Source: a virus
Length of the DNA stretch: 47,834 bases
Virus record (IMG/VR): IMGVR_UViG_3300033141_003301
Coordinates: 1-47,834 of that record
Direction: 5' to 3' (one strand)
In this document: positions 11,645-41,699 of the stretch, in pieces
Numbering within the stretch: the stretch's first letter is position 1
Layout: each line of letters opens with the position of its first letter
Made by a program: the position numbers and the translations under genes
Notes under the pieces: model-generated
Database searches by the model: none
Told to the model about the DNA's origin: nothing
Seen by the model: only the letters and a program-made list of their open reading frames with translations

Positions 11645-13348
11645 TTAATGTCGCTTCGTTGTTAACGGTAAACCCCCTCCGTAACTTTTAGACATACTGC
11701 CGGAAGTTTCTTTCGGGACACTCTTTGTTTCTTTTCCCATTGTTCCCGGCGTTGACTTCGGAGCTGATGATTCAACTGCAACTGCCTCCCTTCCAAACCA
11801 ATAACATACTCCAGCTACGGCGTCACTGATATCTTTACTTCCTTTCGGAGGATGGTCAACTTTTTTCCCTTTAATCAGTTCAAGTTCTTCAAGTTCACGA
11901 ATTAGATATTCAACGGGAGTTCTGGGTTGTCTTCCTTCAAGGTCTTCGTAATCGGCATAAGGAAATTCTATCAATCCCTGATATAAAAAAGATTTAAGCT
12001 GGTCATAAGGTTCAATAGTTCTGTCAACTGACAGCAATGATGTGCTGTATCCTTTCCTTTGAAGTATCTGCCGAGAGTCAACACTTTGCCAGCCGTCGTA
12101 GCTTACTTTACCTATTTGAAATTTACGCCTTGAAAGCTCGTAAATTCTTTCACGAACTTCACTAAATTGTATTTCACTCCCGGGTTTCGCTGTTAATCTT
12201 AAAAGCAAATCAATAATAACCTTGCCGTCCTCCCAATGTCCCATTGCAAATCCACAAGAGTCTTTTGACAATGCCAAGTCAACATGGATAACATAATTAC
12301 TTATACTTTTACACCAAAAATCAGGGTCAATATCTTCACTTCCTATTACTGGATTTTCTCTTTCTGATATTGCGTTTTTTATTTTGTCATAAAGTTTTAT
12401 GTAAGGCTCAAGAGATTTTGACGGCATTGCCATTAAATCCCTTTCAGCTTTTTCCGGATTTTTTTCAAAATCTTCTTTATGTTCAATAGGTATCATTAAT
12501 GATTTATATTTAAACTTTTCTCCGCTATAACTTTCAGGCGGCTTCATTTCCCATAGAGCTTTCCGGTCTTTATAAATTCGGTTATTCGGGTCAGCTTCCC
12601 GGAGCTTTCTTTCAATGTAGTCATTTACATACCGAGGAGAGCTTATAATAACCAGCTTGCCATAGTTGCGGAAATTTTCATTGCCTCTACTTCTTATTCT
12701 TCTGTTAATTGCATTATACATTTCTTCTGCATAATCTTTTCTTTCAGTAACAGTATAAAAAGCGGCTTCGTCCATAATTGCTGAAAAAACGTTCATACCA
12801 AGAGGAAATGTTTCAAGACTGCCTCCCGGGACTACTCTTACATTTTTTGGAAATCTTAACTCACTTTTAACATAAGGATTAGGTGGATAATATTTTTGAA
12901 ACCAAAACGAATTATCAATTTTATTTTTTATCTCTCCAAACACCACTCTCCTTGCCTGCGGTTCTTTCGTGCTTACGTTTATAAAATCAATTTCGCTTCC
13001 TTCTCCAAGTCCAAAATATTCCTGCGGATTTTTAAGAGCTAATACCCTCATTATTTCATAGCAAGCGATTATACTTGACTCATAGCTTTTTCCTGCCCCA
13101 ATACCTCTGCAAAGTACTGCTTCAGTCTTTCCACTTTTATAAAAGTTCTCAAGGTCGCAAATGATACTTTCCCATACATCATCTCTACCAAGATAATAAG
13201 GACTTGTAATAAATTCTCTTATGGGCGGAATCCTGTGTTCATATTCGGGGTTATCAACAATAAATCTTAACTCTTTTATAGCTTCGTCGCCTAAATCTGC
13301 TATTAATCCTTCAGCTTCCGCTTTAATTTGTGTCAGATTTTTGTTCAT
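11645..13348 (-). CDS. terL: Terminase large subunit
   Basis: Seen in the product (567 aa from this start) are a Walker A GIGAGKS near residues 82-88, a Walker B FSAIMDEAAF with the catalytic Asp-Glu near 193-194, a coupling motif region (VIISSPRYVND), and the RNase H-like nuclease start IHVDLALSKDSCGFAMGHW with the first metal Asp. The C-terminus is Ser/Gly/Lys-rich. It packages DNA through the portal. An alternative ATG at 13366 would add six residues; the MNKNL start at 13348 is preferred because it looks like a natural N-terminus. Either start overlaps the DpdA-like fusion gene upstream, so the two are co-translated. Confidence 0.92.
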   Translation of the reverse strand: MNKNLTQIKAEAEGLIADLGDEAIKELRFIVDNPEYEHRIPPIREFITSPYYLGRDDVWESIICDLENFYKSGKTEAVLCRGIGAGKSYESSIIACYEIMRVLALKNPQEYFGLGEGSEIDFINVSTKEPQARRVVFGEIKNKIDNSFWFQKYYPPNPYVKSELRFPKNVRVVPGGSLETFPLGMNVFSAIMDEAAFYTVTERKDYAEEMYNAINRRIRSRGNENFRNYGKLVIISSPRYVNDYIERKLREADPNNRIYKDRKALWEMKPPESYSGEKFKYKSLMIPIEHKEDFEKNPEKAERDLMAMPSKSLEPYIKLYDKIKNAISERENPVIGSEDIDPDFWCKSISNYVIHVDLALSKDSCGFAMGHWEDGKVIIDLLLRLTAKPGSEIQFSEVRERIYELSRRKFQIGKVSYDGWQSVDSRQILQRKGYSTSLLSVDRTIEPYDQLKSFLYQGLIEFPYADYEDLEGRQPRTPVEYLIRELEELELIKGKKVDHPPKGSKDISDAVAGVCYWFGREAVAVESSAPKSTPGTMGKETKSVPKETSGSMSKSYGGGLPLTTKRH

Positions 13349-14807
13349 TCTTTTCCAATACCTCATCTAATACGTCTAACACTCTCCTTTTATCTTTTTC
13401 AGGTAATTTGTTTATACGATTTGATATTACAGATATGATATTAGTAGTATTATTGTTGATTTGTATGTTCTTTGAAGGTCTTAATACATAATCTTTTAAT
13501 CGTAATCCTTCTTCAAGAGCAAACAACATCTGTGAAACATTTTTATCAGGTAATCCCCCGTCAAGAAGTTCAAAGTAATAGGCGACACTTAATCTTGCTC
13601 CTTTAATCTCTTGTAATCTATCCAGCCATTCAAGTATATTTTCTCTTGACCTGCCTACTACTGGGAATATGTTTTTAAACTCTTTTCTCATACCACATAC
13701 TATAGTCTCATTTTCTTTAGGCTCTACATATAGAATACACTTATCAGAAGCATAACAATTATTGCAATACAATGGAAAGTTCTGTGCATATTCTCCGGTT
13801 TTAAATCCAAACATGTTACCTTTCATCTTTTTTAAATGATTTCTCCGTCGCTTCTCCCTTAACTCTGGATTATTCTCAAGTATGATTTGTATCTTTCCTT
13901 TATTTTTTTCAAATCCATTCGGTTTTTTACCCTCATCCTTTCGGGGACTTTCCTCTTTCCAATACTTTTTACTGTGCATATCAATATACTTTTCAAATGC
14001 TTTCCAAGAATATATATTTAATTTATCAACTTCATTATAGTCATCATTACTGATTTTCTTATAATTTAAACCGTATTCTTCAATTTTTGATTTATATCTT
14101 AACCGTTGTTTTTTCTCGTCTTTCCCGAAATGTAACATCTTATTTCCGGTAAAGATATATGTAATTCCAAATCTACCCCCACTTAACCAAGAAGTACTGT
14201 CAACAGAGTAAAATGGTATTTTTAACATTTGCTTTTCTTTAGTCATAGCAAATCCATGAACTTTTGTGCCGTATTTCTTTGCTACATTAAGTTTGCTTAT
14301 ATAAGTTCCGTCAGGCAGGCTTCCTTCAATTCCAACATAATCAAACTCTTTACACATCTTCTCCCACTCTTTTTCTTTATTCGGAATACCTTTATTATGC
14401 CAAACGGGAATTATCGTTGCACCTGTTTCTATTAATTGCTTACGCCATTCAACCACCTTTTTATAATCAACCAATTCACCTATGTCCAGCTCTACAAAAT
14501 AATCTACATAATCCTTTACTTCTATAATCCAATTTATGTATTCTTTAACATATCCATCGTAATTAAGATTACTTTTACTTTGCTTCATTACAGCTACACC
14601 ATGTCCTATCCCTTCTTCACTAAAAAAAGTATGTGCTCCACTGTCTATAAGAATTGTAGCCCCTGAATCTTTTAGTTTTTTGAATTGACTTTTAACTTCC
14701 GTTATATTTTTATTTTTATATATAAAATAACTCCCAAGGACATTTTTTACTTTACAATCATATAAGACTTTATAATGCCCTTCTAACCCTGCAAAGAAAA
14801 TTTTCAT
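13323..14807 (-). CDS. DpdA/TGT-like guanine transglycosylase fused to zinc-containing terminase-small-like half
   Basis: Residues 1 to about 235 look like a TGT-type TIM barrel. DSGAHTFF at 55-62 corresponds to the DSGGFQ motif, ELDIGE at 106-111 to the second active-site Asp, and SVDSTSWLSGGRFG at 201-214 to the nucleophile Asp region. This is the arrangement of DpdA enzymes that exchange guanine for a 7-deazaguanine in phage DNA. After a Lys-rich linker (about 280-340) comes FKTGEYA, a four-Cys site (C348, C351, C357, C371) and a helical region with KGARLSVAYYFELLDGG and DKNVS. This resembles small proteins encoded just before terL. The gene overlaps terL downstream and the methyltransferase upstream by 4 nt. 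Transglycosylase fold: good support. Terminase-small role of the C-terminal half: inferred from motif style and position. No zinc site typical of bacterial TGT (CxCxxC-H) is seen in the barrel. Confidence 0.72.
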   Translation of the reverse strand: MKIFFAGLEGHYKVLYDCKVKNVLGSYFIYKNKNITEVKSQFKKLKDSGATILIDSGAHTFFSEEGIGHGVAVMKQSKSNLNYDGYVKEYINWIIEVKDYVDYFVELDIGELVDYKKVVEWRKQLIETGATIIPVWHNKGIPNKEKEWEKMCKEFDYVGIEGSLPDGTYISKLNVAKKYGTKVHGFAMTKEKQMLKIPFYSVDSTSWLSGGRFGITYIFTGNKMLHFGKDEKKQRLRYKSKIEEYGLNYKKISNDDYNEVDKLNIYSWKAFEKYIDMHSKKYWKEESPRKDEGKKPNGFEKNKGKIQIILENNPELREKRRRNHLKKMKGNMFGFKTGEYAQNFPLYCNNCYASDKCILYVEPKENETIVCGMRKEFKNIFPVVGRSRENILEWLDRLQEIKGARLSVAYYFELLDGGLPDKNVSQMLFALEEGLRLKDYVLRPSKNIQINNNTTNIISVISNRINKLPEKDKRRVLDVLDEVLEKNEQKSDTN

Positions 14808-15370
14808 AACTTTTTACCTGCAATTAATGTCCAGTAAAATTTTTTACTTTCTACTTCTGCCTGTTTTACATATTCTAACATACTAATATTCATGTTATTT
14901 AATAATCTTATTATGTGATTACTTTTAATATTAAAATGTTTATGATAAATATTGCTTTTTTTCTTTTCTTTCTCCGGGAACGATAACACAATTACACCTT
15001 TTTTTCTTAAAAGCTTTACTAATTGATTTAATGAACTTTCAATACTTTTTGATAAATGTTCAATTGTTTCCAAACATACAATAACATCAAACTTTGTTTT
15101 TACGTTATTAATAAAATTATTTTCAAAATATTTTATGTTTTCTTTTTTGTAATACTTTTGTGCATAAGCTATAGCTTCACTTGATATGTCATATCCTATT
15201 ACTTCTTTTGCCTTTTCTGATAATATAAAACTTCCATATCCACAACCACACCCTACATCAGCTACAATTTTATTAATACAATATTTTGAAGAAATATAAT
15301 ATCTCGTTAAATGGTCTTTAGGAATATTTTTTAAATCACATTCCATTACCCTTTCTCCTATTTTTTTCAT
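14804..15370 (-). CDS. Class I SAM-dependent methyltransferase, 188 aa
   Basis: Motif I VADVGCGCGYGSFIL is near residues 36-50, an acidic strand end GYDIS near 68-72 would bind the ribose, and FDVIVCLETIEHL near 103-115 is the usual motif IV/post-IV of small-molecule (UbiG/Methyltransf_11-like) enzymes. No DNA-methylase NPPY or DPPY motif is present. It sits with 4-nt overlaps between the DpdA-like fusion and the glycosyltransferase, inside the 7-deazaguanine operon. A role in methylating the modified base, its sugar or a precursor is inferred. An alternative is a function in host surface glycan modification together with the glycosyltransferase. Confidence 0.8.
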   Translation of the reverse strand: MKKIGERVMECDLKNIPKDHLTRYYISSKYCINKIVADVGCGCGYGSFILSEKAKEVIGYDISSEAIAYAQKYYKKENIKYFENNFINNVKTKFDVIVCLETIEHLSKSIESSLNQLVKLLRKKGVIVLSFPEKEKKKSNIYHKHFNIKSNHIIRLLNNMNISMLEYVKQAEVESKKFYWTLIAGKKL

Positions 15371-16470
15371 AGCTCAAACCCCATTGTTTTTAAATAGGTC
15401 TTCCAGCTATTATCATGTTTTCTTATTACTTCATCTTTCAATTTAAAATCAACATCTTTTTGCTCAAACAAATCTTTTAATTTCCTTTCTGCGTCATCTA
15501 TATCATTTTGTATATATAAATATCTTGGGTCATTTTTTAATTCATTTGGAAAATCTCTCCACATTGGATATAATACCTTACAATTAAATGTAAGAGCTTC
15601 AAGAAGTGTCCAACTTACCCAATCTTGATAAGCACAGTTAAACTGTATCTCTGCCTTACATAGTAGAGTATAATAATCAAGCTTATTTTTAGTGTCCACT
15701 ATCTCAAGATTTTTTATCTTACCTTGCATTTTTCTTAATCTTTCAATAACGCCACTATCATTTGATATACAATTTCTGGGATTTACCAACTTAAAATTTA
15801 TATCAGGACATCTTTCAACTAAATCTAAAAAAAAGTGAGGATTTTTTTCTTTGTCAAATCTTGAAGAAAACAATACAAAAGGTTCTTTCTGCTGCCATTT
15901 AAATCCCATTTCCTTTATTTGTTCAAGTAATTTTTTTGAATTATAAGGAAGACCTATACAATATATATTTTTACTATTGTATCCTGCACTTATACATTTG
16001 TCTTTCAATATAGCAGAAGTAACAAATATAAAGTCATAACCCCTTGATAGTCCTCTTTCAACATCACGTATCCAATATCTCATTGGAAAAGTAAAATCCC
16101 ATTCATCAACACTTTGTGCATGAAGAAAACAACCAACCTTGAATCTTATTCCCGTTATATCTCTTATGTAAAATAAACTTTCAACTCCAGGTTGCCAAAA
16201 ATCTTCTGTATATATTACATCTTCATCAGTAATATACCCGGTTTCCAGTAAAAATATTACTTTTTCAATCTGCGTCATTGCATAAATACTTCTTCCATAG
16301 GCGTCTAATACTACCCCAGCTTTTATCTCATTTCTATCTTTCTCCCCTTCAACTCTCATAAAATCAATTCCATATTTTCGGAAATTACTTTCTGCCCAGC
16401 CACCTTTACAGCTCATAAACCAAGTATATCGTTCTTTATAAGGTTCTAACGGTAAGTAAAATAATTTCAT
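15367..16470 (-). CDS. GT-B type glycosyltransferase, 367 aa
   Basis: The C-terminal half shows the GT4-like donor-binding layout: FVLFSSRFDKEKNPHFFLDL around residues 218-237, then IVDTKNKLDYYTLLCKAEI, and WTLLEALTFNCKVLYP around 300-315 with the Glu usual in retaining GT-B enzymes. The N-terminal half is a degenerate Rossmann domain with FLHAQSVDEWDF. No signal peptide or membrane anchor is visible, so it acts in the cytoplasm. It overlaps both neighbours by 4 nt. In this context it could glycosylate a hypermodified DNA base, as phage glucosyltransferases do for hydroxymethyl-cytosine. That role is inferred. Confidence 0.78.
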   Translation of the reverse strand: MKLFYLPLEPYKERYTWFMSCKGGWAESNFRKYGIDFMRVEGEKDRNEIKAGVVLDAYGRSIYAMTQIEKVIFLLETGYITDEDVIYTEDFWQPGVESLFYIRDITGIRFKVGCFLHAQSVDEWDFTFPMRYWIRDVERGLSRGYDFIFVTSAILKDKCISAGYNSKNIYCIGLPYNSKKLLEQIKEMGFKWQQKEPFVLFSSRFDKEKNPHFFLDLVERCPDINFKLVNPRNCISNDSGVIERLRKMQGKIKNLEIVDTKNKLDYYTLLCKAEIQFNCAYQDWVSWTLLEALTFNCKVLYPMWRDFPNELKNDPRYLYIQNDIDDAERKLKDLFEQKDVDFKLKDEVIRKHDNSWKTYLKTMGFEL

Positions 16471-16805
16471 TTTGTTACCTCAGCTCCATTTTCATTGTCT
16501 TCTAAAACTTTTACAGAAGTGCAGTTAAATTGTTTGAGTATCTTTTCTGCTATATCCTCGCAACTCATATTTCCAAATTTTAAATATTGATAAGCATAAC
16601 TTTTATTGACACCATATTTGATTATTAAATAATTTTTAATAGCTTTTTTAAAATTAATTATTTCTATTTCCCGGTTATTATGACTTACTTCTTTTTTTAC
16701 TATTATTCTAAAAATATGTCTATGTAAATTTTTTAAATAATTTTCTGCCTCTGGGTATTTATGAACACCTTCAATATCTAATTTTACAATTATATACCTT
16801 TGCAT
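16467..16805 (-). CDS. QueD/PTPS-like paralogue lacking the catalytic Cys
   Basis: The 112-residue protein can be laid over the canonical QueD at 17918-18265. His15, His28 and His30 (LHRH) fall at the same residue numbers as the three zinc ligands. SCEDIAEKIL matches the TSENLACYL helix, and VKVLED matches VRVYES at the end. QueD's catalytic Cys24 is Leu here, and its Asp-His pair (residues 65-66) is missing. So it likely binds zinc and a pterin- or deazaguanine-like ligand but cannot do the same chemistry. From memory, a QueD-related decarboxylase of CDG (DpdL) has been proposed in phages; this gene is a candidate for that type of role. It overlaps glycosyltransferase and folE. Confidence 0.65.
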   Translation of the reverse strand: MQRYIIVKLDIEGVHKYPEAENYLKNLHRHIFRIIVKKEVSHNNREIEIINFKKAIKNYLIIKYGVNKSYAYQYLKFGNMSCEDIAEKILKQFNCTSVKVLEDNENGAEVTK

Positions 16806-17299
16806 AACCTAAAAAATTCTTCTCTTACTTTCATTTTATCAAATACACCTCTTATCGCACTCGTAACCATTACAGAATTTTCTTTTTTCACCCCTCGCAT
16901 TATCATACACAAATGTTGACCTTCAACGACACAAATACAACCTTCTGGCTTCATTTCTTTTTCAAGATAACTTACTATTTCCTCGGTCATACGTTCTTGT
17001 ATCTGCGGTTTTGAAGCAAACTTATCAACTAATCTCGCTAACTTACTTATTCCACATATTTTTTTCCCGGGTATATATCCAATATGAGCTTTTCCAAAAA
17101 AAGGTAATAGGTGATGTGAACAAAAGGAATAAAAATTTATATCTTTGAGTATTATCATTTGATTATATCCAGGGTTTTTAAATGTAGTAAATTTAAAGTT
17201 TTTCTTATCTTTCATTTCATTAAAAAAATTTTTAATCCTTGTCGGGGTATTTCTAATTTCTTCTTCGTTAAACAGTTTATTGCTTATTTCTATTTTCAT
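16790..17299 (-). CDS. folE: GTP cyclohydrolase I (type IA)
   Basis: The 169-residue enzyme has all family motifs. FCSHHLLPFFG has zinc ligands Cys60 and His63, ISKLARLVDKFASKPQIQERMT is at 84-105, and CVVEGQHLCMIMRG holds the third zinc ligand Cys131. It converts GTP to dihydroneopterin triphosphate, the first step of the 7-deazaguanine pathway. It is slightly short at the N-terminus, which is usual for phage versions. It overlaps queE by 4 nt and the QueD-like gene by 16 nt. A second, unrelated GTP cyclohydrolase is encoded at 41693-43573. Confidence 0.93.
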   Translation of the reverse strand: MKIEISNKLFNEEEIRNTPTRIKNFFNEMKDKKNFKFTTFKNPGYNQMIILKDINFYSFCSHHLLPFFGKAHIGYIPGKKICGISKLARLVDKFASKPQIQERMTEEIVSYLEKEMKPEGCICVVEGQHLCMIMRGVKKENSVMVTSAIRGVFDKMKVREEFFRLCKGI

Positions 17300-17955
17300 T
17301 GTATATTTAGTTCTTTGTGTAATTGGTAACCGTATTTAACTCGTAATCCATTCTGAATTATTGCATTCGCTACTTCATTATTAAGTCTTGTTGTCTGAAA
17401 ATATACGTCAATCCATTCTGGTATATCACCTAACTTACTAATAGCAAATGGCAAGTCTGTTTCTATATCTATAATAGGAAATTTAATCCAAACATTCTTA
17501 TAATTTAACAAAGTAAGATTTTTTTTATTAAAACTTTTTTCCTCTCCAGAACTGGGAGTTTTCCAATCAATAGCATATTCAATAAATCTTCCTCTGCAAT
17601 TTACTAACCCTTGAAATATACTAATACTTCCATTTGTTTCAATAGTTATCGGAATACTAATTTTATTTAATAACTTATTCGTATATTTACGGTTACTTTC
17701 TTCAAGCGGTTCTCCACCTGTAATTGTAACCCTCTGTGCAGGAGATTCTTTTAATCTTCTTAAAACCTCATCAACACTATACATCGTTTTTCTTTTGTGA
17801 CTGTATTTTGTATCACACCATTTACAATTAAGATTGCAACCTGAAAAGCGTATAAAAAAAGTAAGCTCTCCTTGATACCTGCCTTCACCTTCAAGAGAAG
17901 TAAAACACTCAATTATATTAGTTTTTTGCTTCAGCATAACTTTTAGGACTTTCAT
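17296..17955 (-). CDS. queE: 7-carboxy-7-deazaguanine synthase (radical SAM)
   Basis: The 219-residue protein has SLEGEGRYQG near residues 20-29, the CX3CX2C iron-sulphur motif of the QueE family at Cys40, Cys44 and Cys47 (GCNLNCKWCDT), and the SAM-binding TGGEPLEE at 79-86. It converts 6-carboxytetrahydropterin to CDG. An inner ATG at 17937 would shorten it by six residues; the ATG at 17955 is kept because a TAAGAG site lies close upstream. It overlaps queD by 38 nt. Confidence 0.92.
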   Translation of the reverse strand: MKVLKVMLKQKTNIIECFTSLEGEGRYQGELTFFIRFSGCNLNCKWCDTKYSHKRKTMYSVDEVLRRLKESPAQRVTITGGEPLEESNRKYTNKLLNKISIPITIETNGSISIFQGLVNCRGRFIEYAIDWKTPSSGEEKSFNKKNLTLLNYKNVWIKFPIIDIETDLPFAISKLGDIPEWIDVYFQTTRLNNEVANAIIQNGLRVKYGYQLHKELNIQ

Positions 17956-18265
17956 AAACTCTTACTTTAAATTTCAAATCAGGATTTTCTGAATGAAATT
18001 TACTTACTAAATAGCAAGCAAGATTTTCACTGGTAGGATTAAAATTACATATTTCATTCAATAGTTTATGGTCAAATTTTTTTACTTCTTTTTTAAGATT
18101 TGTAAAGTCCCATAGTATTCCATTTTTCTTTACTTGCCTTGAATTGCCCTTAATTTCTACAATTACTTTCCAAGTATGCCCATGTAGATTTGCACATTTA
18201 CCTTCATAGTTTTCAAGTGAGTGTGCGGCGTCAAAAGTTGCCTCTGTTTTTAGTTTAATATTCAT
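17918..18265 (-). CDS. queD: 6-carboxytetrahydropterin synthase
   Basis: Seen in 115 residues: DAAHS (zinc His15), GKCANLHGHTW (catalytic Cys24, zinc His28 and His30), ILWDFTNLK, a catalytic FDH pair at 64-66, PTSENLA at 77-83 and the substrate-anchoring Glu105 in VYES. It converts dihydroneopterin triphosphate to 6-carboxytetrahydropterin. It is the first enzyme gene of the 7-deazaguanine operon in transcription order, starting inside the HNH gene (11-nt overlap). Confidence 0.92.
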   Translation of the reverse strand: MNIKLKTEATFDAAHSLENYEGKCANLHGHTWKVIVEIKGNSRQVKKNGILWDFTNLKKEVKKFDHKLLNEICNFNPTSENLACYLVSKFHSENPDLKFKVRVYESPKSYAEAKN

Positions 18266-19433: not shown

Positions 19434-20214
19434 TTATCTCCTTATTTTGCCCTCCTTTAATTCTTCAGCTAAATTAATAAATTTTTTATATTCCTCTGCG
19501 ATAGCTGATTCCCCATGTTTTTTAAATATCCGCCTGTAATGTTTTTTCCATTCTTCTATCGTATGCACTTCACAGCCTATTTTTATTTGTTTAGGAGTGA
19601 TAATTATTCTATATTTCAGTCCAGCTATTATTATCGGCTGTTTTGTAAATTTTTCCCCGTTATACCACTTTGCCCCTGTAATGTCTACCTCTGCAAGGTC
19701 TGCCCCTGCAAGATTCGCCCCTTCAAGTCTCGCCCCTGCAAGGTCTGCCTCTGCAAAGCTCGCCCCTGTAAGATTCGCCCCTGCAAAGCTTGCCCTTGTA
19801 AGATTCGCCCCTGCAAGTCTCGCCCCTGCAAGGTTCGCCCCTGCAAAGGTCTGCCTCTGCAAGGTCTGCCTCTGCAAAGCTCGCCCCTGTAAGATTCGCC
19901 CTTGCAAAGCTCGCCCCTGCAAGGCTCGCCCCTGCAAGGTCTGCCCCTGCAAGTCTCGCCCCTGCAAAGCTCGCCTTTGCAAGGTCTGCCCCTGCAAAGC
20001 TTGCCCCTTCAAGTCTCGCCCTTGCAAAGCTCGCCCCTGCAAGGTCTGCCCCTGCAAGTCTCGCCCCTGCAAGGTCTGCCTCTGCAAGGTTTGCTTTGTT
20101 ATCCTCTACGCAGTCCTTTATACTTTCATACTCTCCGCATAAAATAATATCTCCCGTGAAATAGTTTTTTATTTTAATTATCATTTTTTGCTCCCTTACC
20201 GGTTCTTTATTCAT
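19434..20214 (-). CDS. Pentapeptide-repeat protein interrupted by a +1 frameshift
   Basis: The N-terminal 40 residues ([10 protein letters not shown] start, then [16 protein letters not shown]) are followed by about 28 pentapeptide units of the A(D/N/S)LAG type. The C-terminal 75 residues ([13 protein letters not shown], then [15 protein letters not shown]) resemble ends of other phage pentapeptide proteins. One extra A in the run at 19845-19847 shifts the frame: upstream the good repeat frame stops being used, and downstream it continues in another frame to 19434. Without that base the gene encodes 259 residues. With it, translation from 20214 continues as CRGES-type repeats and ends at 19723 (163 aa). 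Pentapeptide solenoids can mimic DNA or form scaffolds. The shift could be a sequencing slip, a real knockout or a phase switch. Confidence 0.75.
19680..20095 (-). repeat. Tandem 15-bp repeats coding for pentapeptides
   Basis: About 28 imperfect copies of a 15-bp unit (minus strand GCAGGGGCGAGCTTT-like) fill this stretch. The unit lacks stop codons in all six frames, so long artificial frames appear on both strands. One 16-bp unit, with an extra A at 19845-19847, breaks the period. Confidence 0.9.
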
Positions 20215-40474: not shown

Positions 40475-41070
40475 CTTAAAAACTCCTTTGCTGAATATTT
40501 CGTTAAAAAAGAATCAGGATCTTCTCCGTCAGGCAATTCAAGTATTTTGTAATCAAAATCCAATTCTTTTAACTGTTCCTCCAACTTCTCAGATCCCCGC
40601 CGACCAGCTCTATCCCCATCTAAGGCAATTATACACCTTGAAGTAAAACGCCTAAGCAAACATACTTGTTGAAAGTTTGCATGTGCTCCAAGTAACCCTA
40701 CTATATATTTTACTCCCTTTTCATAACATTTTAAAGTATCAAAATTACCTTCCACAATTACGGCTACATTATTTTTTACAATATAACGCCAAGTTGAAAA
40801 TAACCCAAATAATGTTTCGATTATTGTACCTTTATGTCTATATCCCAAGCCTTCTGGACTTTTACTTGAAATCCCTAATAAATTACCATACACATCGTAT
40901 ATAGGAAAAAGAATTGAATCTTTATGAGCTCTAGTTAAAAATTTTTCTACAGGGAATCTATTACCTAAAAAAGTCATATCCTTAGTATAAAGACACAAAT
41001 CAAAAGCCATTGCAGTTTTTTTAGAAATTCCTCTTTTTTTAAGATAATCAATTAATCCCTGTTTGCTCAT
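40462..41070 (-). CDS. DNA primase, TOPRIM core, 202 aa
   Basis: VAVIVEGNFDTLKCYEKG near residues 102-118 and CIIALDGDRAGRRGSEKL near 146-163 are the two metal-binding motifs of DnaG TOPRIM, and EDPDSFL near 186 is also typical. The N-terminal RNA polymerase subdomain is present (ISKKTAMAFDL, ILFPIYDVYGNLLGISSK). There is no CHC2 zinc finger and no helicase-binding C-domain, so this is a minimal primase, or its zinc finger is a separate gene. The ATG at 41070 overlaps the preceding stop (ATGA) and is preferred to a TTG at 41094. Confidence 0.85.
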   Translation of the reverse strand: MSKQGLIDYLKKRGISKKTAMAFDLCLYTKDMTFLGNRFPVEKFLTRAHKDSILFPIYDVYGNLLGISSKSPEGLGYRHKGTIIETLFGLFSTWRYIVKNNVAVIVEGNFDTLKCYEKGVKYIVGLLGAHANFQQVCLLRRFTSRCIIALDGDRAGRRGSEKLEEQLKELDFDYKILELPDGEDPDSFLTKYSAKEFLRLVR

Positions 41071-41699
41071 TTTCCCCAAAGTCCCTTTTTCCAAATGATA
41101 GCTATATTAGAATAAACAGAAAGATCCCTGTAGGCATCTTCAACAGATTCGTATTCAGCTTCTTTAGGTTCATGTATTTCTTTAAATTTTATCTCAACTT
41201 CCCACCCCTCAAGAGATAAAATCCTACAAACTTTATCTAAAATTCTAGATATAATCCCAACTATGCCCGACGCTGCTATATTTTGTGATGAATAGTCTCT
41301 GTTTTTTCTTCGATGTGTAGAAGACATTTCTTGGACTAATTTATCGAACTCAGCAAACTGTAACGGATAAGGATCCTCTGGTATTTCCTCTACTTTATAA
41401 TAAATTGGTTTTTTAAAAGTTTCCGCCAACTCTTTCTCTCTACAAGCCCCTTCAGACCTTTCCCAACCAGGCAACAATAATAAAGCATCACATTTTTTAA
41501 CGATTTCAAAATCGCATTGTAAAATTGTTTCAATATCAAAATCACCCTCCTTACACCAACCTTGTGTCATAGTATGTGGACAAACAGGATAATGTCCTGC
41601 TCTTATTATATCAAAAGATGTTTCTTTAGCCTTTTGTATATTTTCTTGTATTTCTTTTTTAGTTGAAGCCCTATAAGGACCTGCTACATAAATTAACAT
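41067..41699 (-). CDS. DUF4406-like/nucleoside-deoxyribosyltransferase-like domain fused to DUF1599-like domain
   Basis: The first 105 residues (LIYVAGPYRASTKKEIQENI, HYPVCPHTMTQGW, CDALLLLPGWERSEGACREKELA) match DUF4406/NDT-fold proteins. The Glu of SEGACRE could be the catalytic residue of deoxyribosyltransferases. The second half (EMSSTHRRKNRDYSSQ, GIVGIISRILDKVCRI, EDAYRDLSVYSNIAIIW) matches DUF1599, which from memory is named a nucleotide-modification-associated domain. Both halves suggest handling of free nucleotides in a base-modification pathway, in line with the neighbouring FolE2 and DpdA genes. Confidence 0.75.
   Translation of the reverse strand: MLIYVAGPYRASTKKEIQENIQKAKETSFDIIRAGHYPVCPHTMTQGWCKEGDFDIETILQCDFEIVKKCDALLLLPGWERSEGACREKELAETFKKPIYYKVEEIPEDPYPLQFAEFDKLVQEMSSTHRRKNRDYSSQNIAASGIVGIISRILDKVCRILSLEGWEVEIKFKEIHEPKEAEYESVEDAYRDLSVYSNIAIIWKKGLWGK

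Follow-up and report, generated by a model that had tools for sequence, protein, structure and literature searches.

A candidate phage operon for 7-deazaguanine DNA hypermodification with a QueD paralogue, a glycosyltransferase and no recognised QueC

Described systems and the operon of the window

Modification of phage DNA with 7-deazaguanines by FolE, QueD, QueE, QueC and DpdA has been described by Hutinet et al. (2019; PMC6884629), who have also raised 7-carboxy-7-deazaguanine (CDG) for a phage without queC. The locus studied here resembles these systems in the clustering of FolE, QueD, QueE and DpdA. It differs in having no recognised QueC, Gat-QueC or QueF and in the addition of a QueD paralogue, a glycosyltransferase (GT) and a methyltransferase. 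The T4-type alpha-GT and beta-GT, which act on hydroxymethylcytosine, are also phage GT-B enzymes that decorate phage DNA, as the GT of this locus would do; the base and the GT family differ, and no hydroxymethylpyrimidine genes were recognised among the window proteins scanned. Phage DNA containing dCDG and dDG, 7-deazaguanines that do not depend on QueC products, has reportedly been described already, together with a predicted CDG decarboxylase, DpdL, and a GT is not known to form part of that pathway. Synthesis of a 7-deazaguanine without QueC is what these DpdL-bearing phages and the window would share. To our knowledge, the 7-deazaguanine bases known from DNA carry small groups. A literature search yielded work on 7-deazaguanine DNA in phages, as well as reviews, and found no description of glycosylated 7-deazaguanine DNA, the novelty of which is uncertain because most subscription papers lay outside its reach.

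The window, that is, the whole stretch of DNA analysed, is an entire IMG/VR record of 47.8 kb that is classed as linear; its ORFs run off both ends, and it is therefore a fragment. The source is a virus of bacteria (or archaea), and its terminase is about 33% identical to the terminases of Gordonia phages. The coupled seven-gene 7-deazaguanine operon proposed in a preliminary description of this DNA was recovered in full, with profile support, as overlapping minus-strand ORFs spanning 13323-18265. In order of transcription these are:

17918..18265, minus strand: QueD, 6-carboxytetrahydropterin synthase, 115 aa (PF01242 7e-29; TIGR03367 over its cut-off)
17296..17955, minus strand: QueE, radical SAM 7-carboxy-7-deazaguanine synthase, 219 aa (Radical_SAM 1e-11; TIGR03963 9e-37; phrog_2076 3e-32)
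16790..17299, minus strand: FolE, GTP cyclohydrolase I, 169 aa (PF01227 3.8e-56)
16467..16805, minus strand: QueD paralogue, T-fold, 112 aa (phrog_17812 6e-19; PF01242 only 0.01)
15367..16470, minus strand: GT4-type GT-B glycosyltransferase, 367 aa (Glycos_transf_1 4.6e-5; structure model; invariant columns)
14804..15370, minus strand: class I SAM methyltransferase, UbiG-like, 188 aa (PF13847 6e-16; UbiG 2e-17, below cut-off)
13323..14807, minus strand: DpdA-type DNA-guanine transglycosylase, 494 aa (phrog_887 1.9e-46 over residues 1-462)

Four of the six junctions are overlaps of 4 nt, as had been stated for most of them; QueD and QueE overlap by 38 nt, and FolE and the QueD paralogue by 16 nt. 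The DpdA gene further shares 44 nt with the large terminase gene. The arrangement is not a product of chance, since dozens of other phage contigs have the same set of genes. The operon has a GC content of 29.1% against a contig mean of 33.5%, the lowest among contig stretches of equal length, which is compatible with acquisition as a block and is no proof of it. Elsewhere in the window, a strongly repetitive sequence at 19434-20214 holds pentapeptide-repeat-like ORFs in overlapping frames. The ORF at 41067-41699 resembles, on the basis of a PHROG match, a nucleoside deoxyribosyltransferase, a possible other route of insertion, but Pfam places it in DUF4406/DUF7768.

Profile matches, residue comparison and motifs indicate that FolE, QueD and QueE are all present and intact. 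Residues C24, H28, D65, H66, E80 and E105 of QueD align with C27, H31, D70, H71, E86 and E110 of E. coli QueD, and the catalytic residues are thus preserved. The QueE translation contains the CxxxCxxC motif as CNLNCKWC, and its match to the QueE-type profile TIGR03963 falls below the curated cut-off. The zinc motifs CSHH and HLC can be read in FolE. When DpdA was aligned with CAjan DpdA and E. coli TGT, the Asp of DSGA and that of VDSTSW were found to be conserved with CAjan DpdA; the second, which we take to be the TGT nucleophile, falls where the alignment to TGT is loose. The reading of the locus as a 7-deazaguanine DNA-modification operon is upheld by these gene identities, by the intact catalytic residues of QueD and DpdA and by the recurrence described below. 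Queuosine synthesis for tRNA was discarded, as the transglycosylase belongs to the phage DpdA family and not to TGT, and the operon shows no gene specific to queuosine. A back-translated pattern scan of IMG/VR viral contigs found no relatives of this DpdA. Its C-terminal extension (window 13323-13900) runs about 200 residues beyond the DpdA of locus L001 and contains a Cys cluster; as no gene between DpdA and the large terminase could be recognised as a small terminase, the extension may serve packaging.

We favour, with a probability of about 0.55, a phage DNA-hypermodification operon in which CDG would pass to the QueD paralogue, the product of the paralogue would be inserted by DpdA, and the GT would glycosylate it. 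From the genes and their motifs, we infer the following steps. FolE, QueD and QueE would convert GTP to CDG. At the CDG branch, in place of QueC, the paralogue would convert CDG to 7-deazaguanine, most likely by zinc-assisted decarboxylation. DpdA would then swap guanine in the phage DNA for this base, the GT would add a sugar to it before or after insertion, and in the window phage the methyltransferase may methylate the sugar or the base. The likely purpose would be protection of the phage DNA against restriction and other defences that target DNA. The main gap in this scheme is the acceptor atom of the GT, since C7 of 7-deazaguanine offers no evident hydroxyl or amine; the sugar may be C-linked, or the paralogue may catalyse a different reaction.

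Recurrence of the module and the glycosyltransferase

Relatives of the paralogue number at least 589 in IMG/VR. From among these, 96 loci were fetched and analysed by local profile searches, with counts that are lowered by contigs ending early. Another 7-deazaguanine gene lies nearby in 94 of the 96 loci, with FolE in 72, QueE in 57 and QueD in 52. The window's GT family is represented in 74 loci and DpdA-type proteins in 83; 73 of the 74 GT-bearing loci have a DpdA-type transglycosylase. The DpdA-type proteins fall into three families, the third of which (motif DSGG[FY]) accounts for most loci that otherwise seem to lack DpdA. The usual gene orders are DpdA-paralogue-GT-QueD-QueE-FolE and QueD-QueE-FolE-paralogue-GT-DpdA. 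L001, the closest relative, has the order QueE-FolE-paralogue-GT-DpdA and a GT that is 58% identical. Matches to the paralogue also occur in 27 isolate-phage records. A phosphoribosyltransferase-fold gene is clustered in 16 loci (L047, L048, L052, L058, L066, L067, L069-L071, L073, L076, L082, L086, L088, L091 and L092), with one also annotated in phage BUCT-ZZ01, and a HIT-domain gene is in the cluster in six loci.

The AlphaFold model of the GT (pLDDT 93, pTM 0.90) has an intact GT4 fold. Its best Foldseek matches are MshA and BshA (E 7e-14), with TM scores mostly of 0.62-0.72 and 12-14% identity. These enzymes of mycothiol and bacillithiol synthesis are the nearest solved folds, whereas the GT of the window lies in a phage 7-deazaguanine locus. 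The GT-B fold is accompanied by the conserved donor-site residues R204 and K209 and by an E/D-x7-E motif (D283...E291), the first Glu of which is Asp in the window protein, and the enzyme is thereby assigned to the retaining GT4 glycosyltransferases. The alignments behind this model and that of the paralogue contain window and related-locus rows only, isolate-phage rows being excluded; the GT family alignment proved too variable to support scanning with a pattern.

GT and paralogue occur together in 76 loci, a set that includes the window and L001, and are on the same strand in all of them; they are not accidental neighbours. Every one of the 20 isolate-phage records that match this GT family comes from a phage having 7-deazaguanine genes: 16 have the paralogue, and the other four belong to a single group with Gat-QueC, for which PhiXhv-12 was tested and a tblastn match was obtained in PhiXhv-15. 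Nucleotide-sugar enzyme genes, either a cytidylyltransferase fused to a mannose-phosphate isomerase or a sugar epimerase, are found in 20 of the 74 GT loci and in none of the 22 others (Fisher P 0.005, kinship among loci ignored). The GT is lacking in the paralogue and DpdA operons of L037, L051, L094, L101, L104 and L108, and a search with a positive control did not find it in phiST, MA9V-3, Roos, RHph_I1_18, Bakedbeans, D479 and Ahp1. Since such operons exist, the GT is an optional decoration.

The same operons bear on the strongest alternative, in which the DNA holds plain dDG or dCDG and the GT acts elsewhere in infection, for example on a phage or host glycan. Where the GT is missing the base is probably inserted sugar-free, and GT4 enzymes are broad in their acceptors. 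This account is nevertheless unlikely for the GT-bearing loci, as the gene overlaps or abuts an operon neighbour, or is no more than 60 bp from one, in 37 of the 76 loci, never leaves the strand of the paralogue, and is confined among the 20 isolate records to phages of very different hosts that share 7-deazaguanine genes. This linkage to the pathway is evidence against a role on host surface glycans, and the assignment of the GT to base modification, as first proposed, is strengthened by it.

Under the favoured glycosylation reading, we tentatively suggest that many of the phages with this module carry an unrecognised base. It would be a sugar-bearing 7-deazaguanine, possibly C-linked at C7 or attached to a handle made by the paralogue, with further decoration that is specific to the phage (methylation in the window phage, an amino sugar or aminoacyl group in phages of the PhiXhv type). 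Such a base would correspond, on the guanine side, to glucosylated hydroxymethylcytosine; it could conceal DNA from restriction and CRISPR nucleases and introduce a bias into virome sequencing. The occurrence of the same cluster in many other phages means that a sugar-coated DNA letter may be widespread, and because cultured laboratory phages (PA5oct, Paride) have the module, the question can be tested now. For two protein families that are mostly annotated as hypothetical, the module also suggests a definite function to test.

In the Xanthomonas phage PhiXhv-12 (L008/L012, record 115739-124996), Gat-QueC, a PIG-L deacetylase and a member of the window's GT family lie in a row, and the same-strand cluster also contains a Gfo/Idh/MocA oxidoreductase, a GNAT acetyltransferase and a Leu/Phe-tRNA transferase. 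The GT adjoins the deacetylase in the way that BshA pairs with BshB. By analogy with that chemistry, the cluster possibly makes an archaeosine-type base decorated with an amino sugar or an aminoacyl group.

The QueD paralogue and the search for QueC

Conservation was compared between 98 paralogues and 55 QueD sequences. The positions of E. coli C27, D70, H71 and E110 are conserved across the 55 QueD proteins. The paralogues retain the zinc histidines (H15, H28 and H30) and the ring-binding Glu (E102), while L24 takes the position of the catalytic Cys and a conserved Asp-His pair is missing from the 98 relatives. Residues H42, R45, E48, S81, C82 and E83 are invariant or nearly so and specific to the paralogue. 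Its AlphaFold model (pLDDT 93) has QueD/PTPS proteins as the nearest PDB folds, with a TM score of 0.76 to E. coli QueD. PDB 7v0f bears the name QueD2 but is another protein, from Acinetobacter. Judged by its residues, the paralogue is a conserved distinct enzyme. Retention of the zinc histidines and the ring Glu with loss of the catalytic residues implies that it should bind a pterin-like or deazaguanine ring beside zinc and perform other chemistry, probably as the step standing in for QueC. Decarboxylation of CDG is our preferred guess, because DpdL is reportedly a predicted CDG decarboxylase. By analogy, the paralogue is probably a DpdL-like CDG decarboxylase, and it may be DpdL itself, which the modelled fold and zinc site would fit.

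The paralogue has also been found inside longer proteins of 294-322 aa (L010 7449-8333, L023 7935-8888, L028 7992-8945 and L029 7189-8157); in L010 it forms the C-terminal part, preceded by an N-terminal region with matches to endonuclease VII families. It occurs as well in 23 bacterial and archaeal genome records (L116-L138), mostly bins, with thaumarchaeal, euryarchaeal and bacterial titles. These records are probably viral contigs or proviruses, with perhaps archaeal viruses among them.

No match to QueC was found anywhere on the contig. The search for queC in the rest of the genome, which the preliminary description had called for, is thereby answered for the contig, which is incomplete, and QueC could sit in the missing part. 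A clear QueC was present within 8 kb in none of the 96 paralogue loci. PF06508 was also searched in 12 representative complete isolate-phage genomes with the paralogue, and 10 gave no match; X1 gave a weak match below the cut-off and D479 a partial match above it. The genomes of the Acidovorax phage ACP17, PA5oct, Phosso and the Synechococcus phage BUCT-ZZ01, searched whole, have GT and paralogue and no QueC. The lack of QueC near the operon, noted earlier for the window, is thus systematic for the module. QueC matches are found in 331 isolate-phage records, and CAjan, nt-1 and PhiXhv-12 have QueC and no paralogue. From these phages and the 10 of 12 genomes, it follows that QueC and the paralogue largely exclude each other.

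This exclusion weighs against the idea that a host QueC makes preQ0, that dPreQ0 or its derivatives are inserted, and that the paralogue is a redundant or decayed QueD. QueC is widespread in bacteria and archaea (12 of 14 control genomes), and CDG synthesised by the phage could serve as its substrate. The paralogue, however, lacks the residues with which QueD catalyses its reaction, and an alignment of 36 relatives shows 13 invariant positions that are peculiar to it; it is thus neither decayed nor redundant, and we regard this explanation as improbable. It is more improbable still that the GT, alone or together with the methyltransferase, adds a sugar to pterins derived from FolE and PTPS-type products, as in the cyanobacterial pterin glycosides, with DpdA and QueE serving separately, for although the operon has FolE and two PTPS-fold proteins and a UDP-glucose:tetrahydrobiopterin glucosyltransferase is among the GT fold matches (rank 28), that enzyme is no closer to the window GT than other GT4 enzymes, QueD has every residue for CPH4 synthesis, and the GT is accompanied by DpdA and often by QueE genes.

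The methyltransferase

The methyltransferase has an intact SAM-binding motif. Its relatives were found neither in IMG/VR viral contigs, by a back-translated pattern scan, nor in the fetched loci. The hypermodified base first suggested for this phage therefore fares differently in its two parts: glycosylation is supported by the tie of the GT to the pathway, and methylation becomes a guess, the enzyme being outside the conserved module and present only on the window contig. Different methyltransferases are found inside the cluster at L027, L047 and L095, and methylation may for this reason be a recurrent addition that has been acquired independently.
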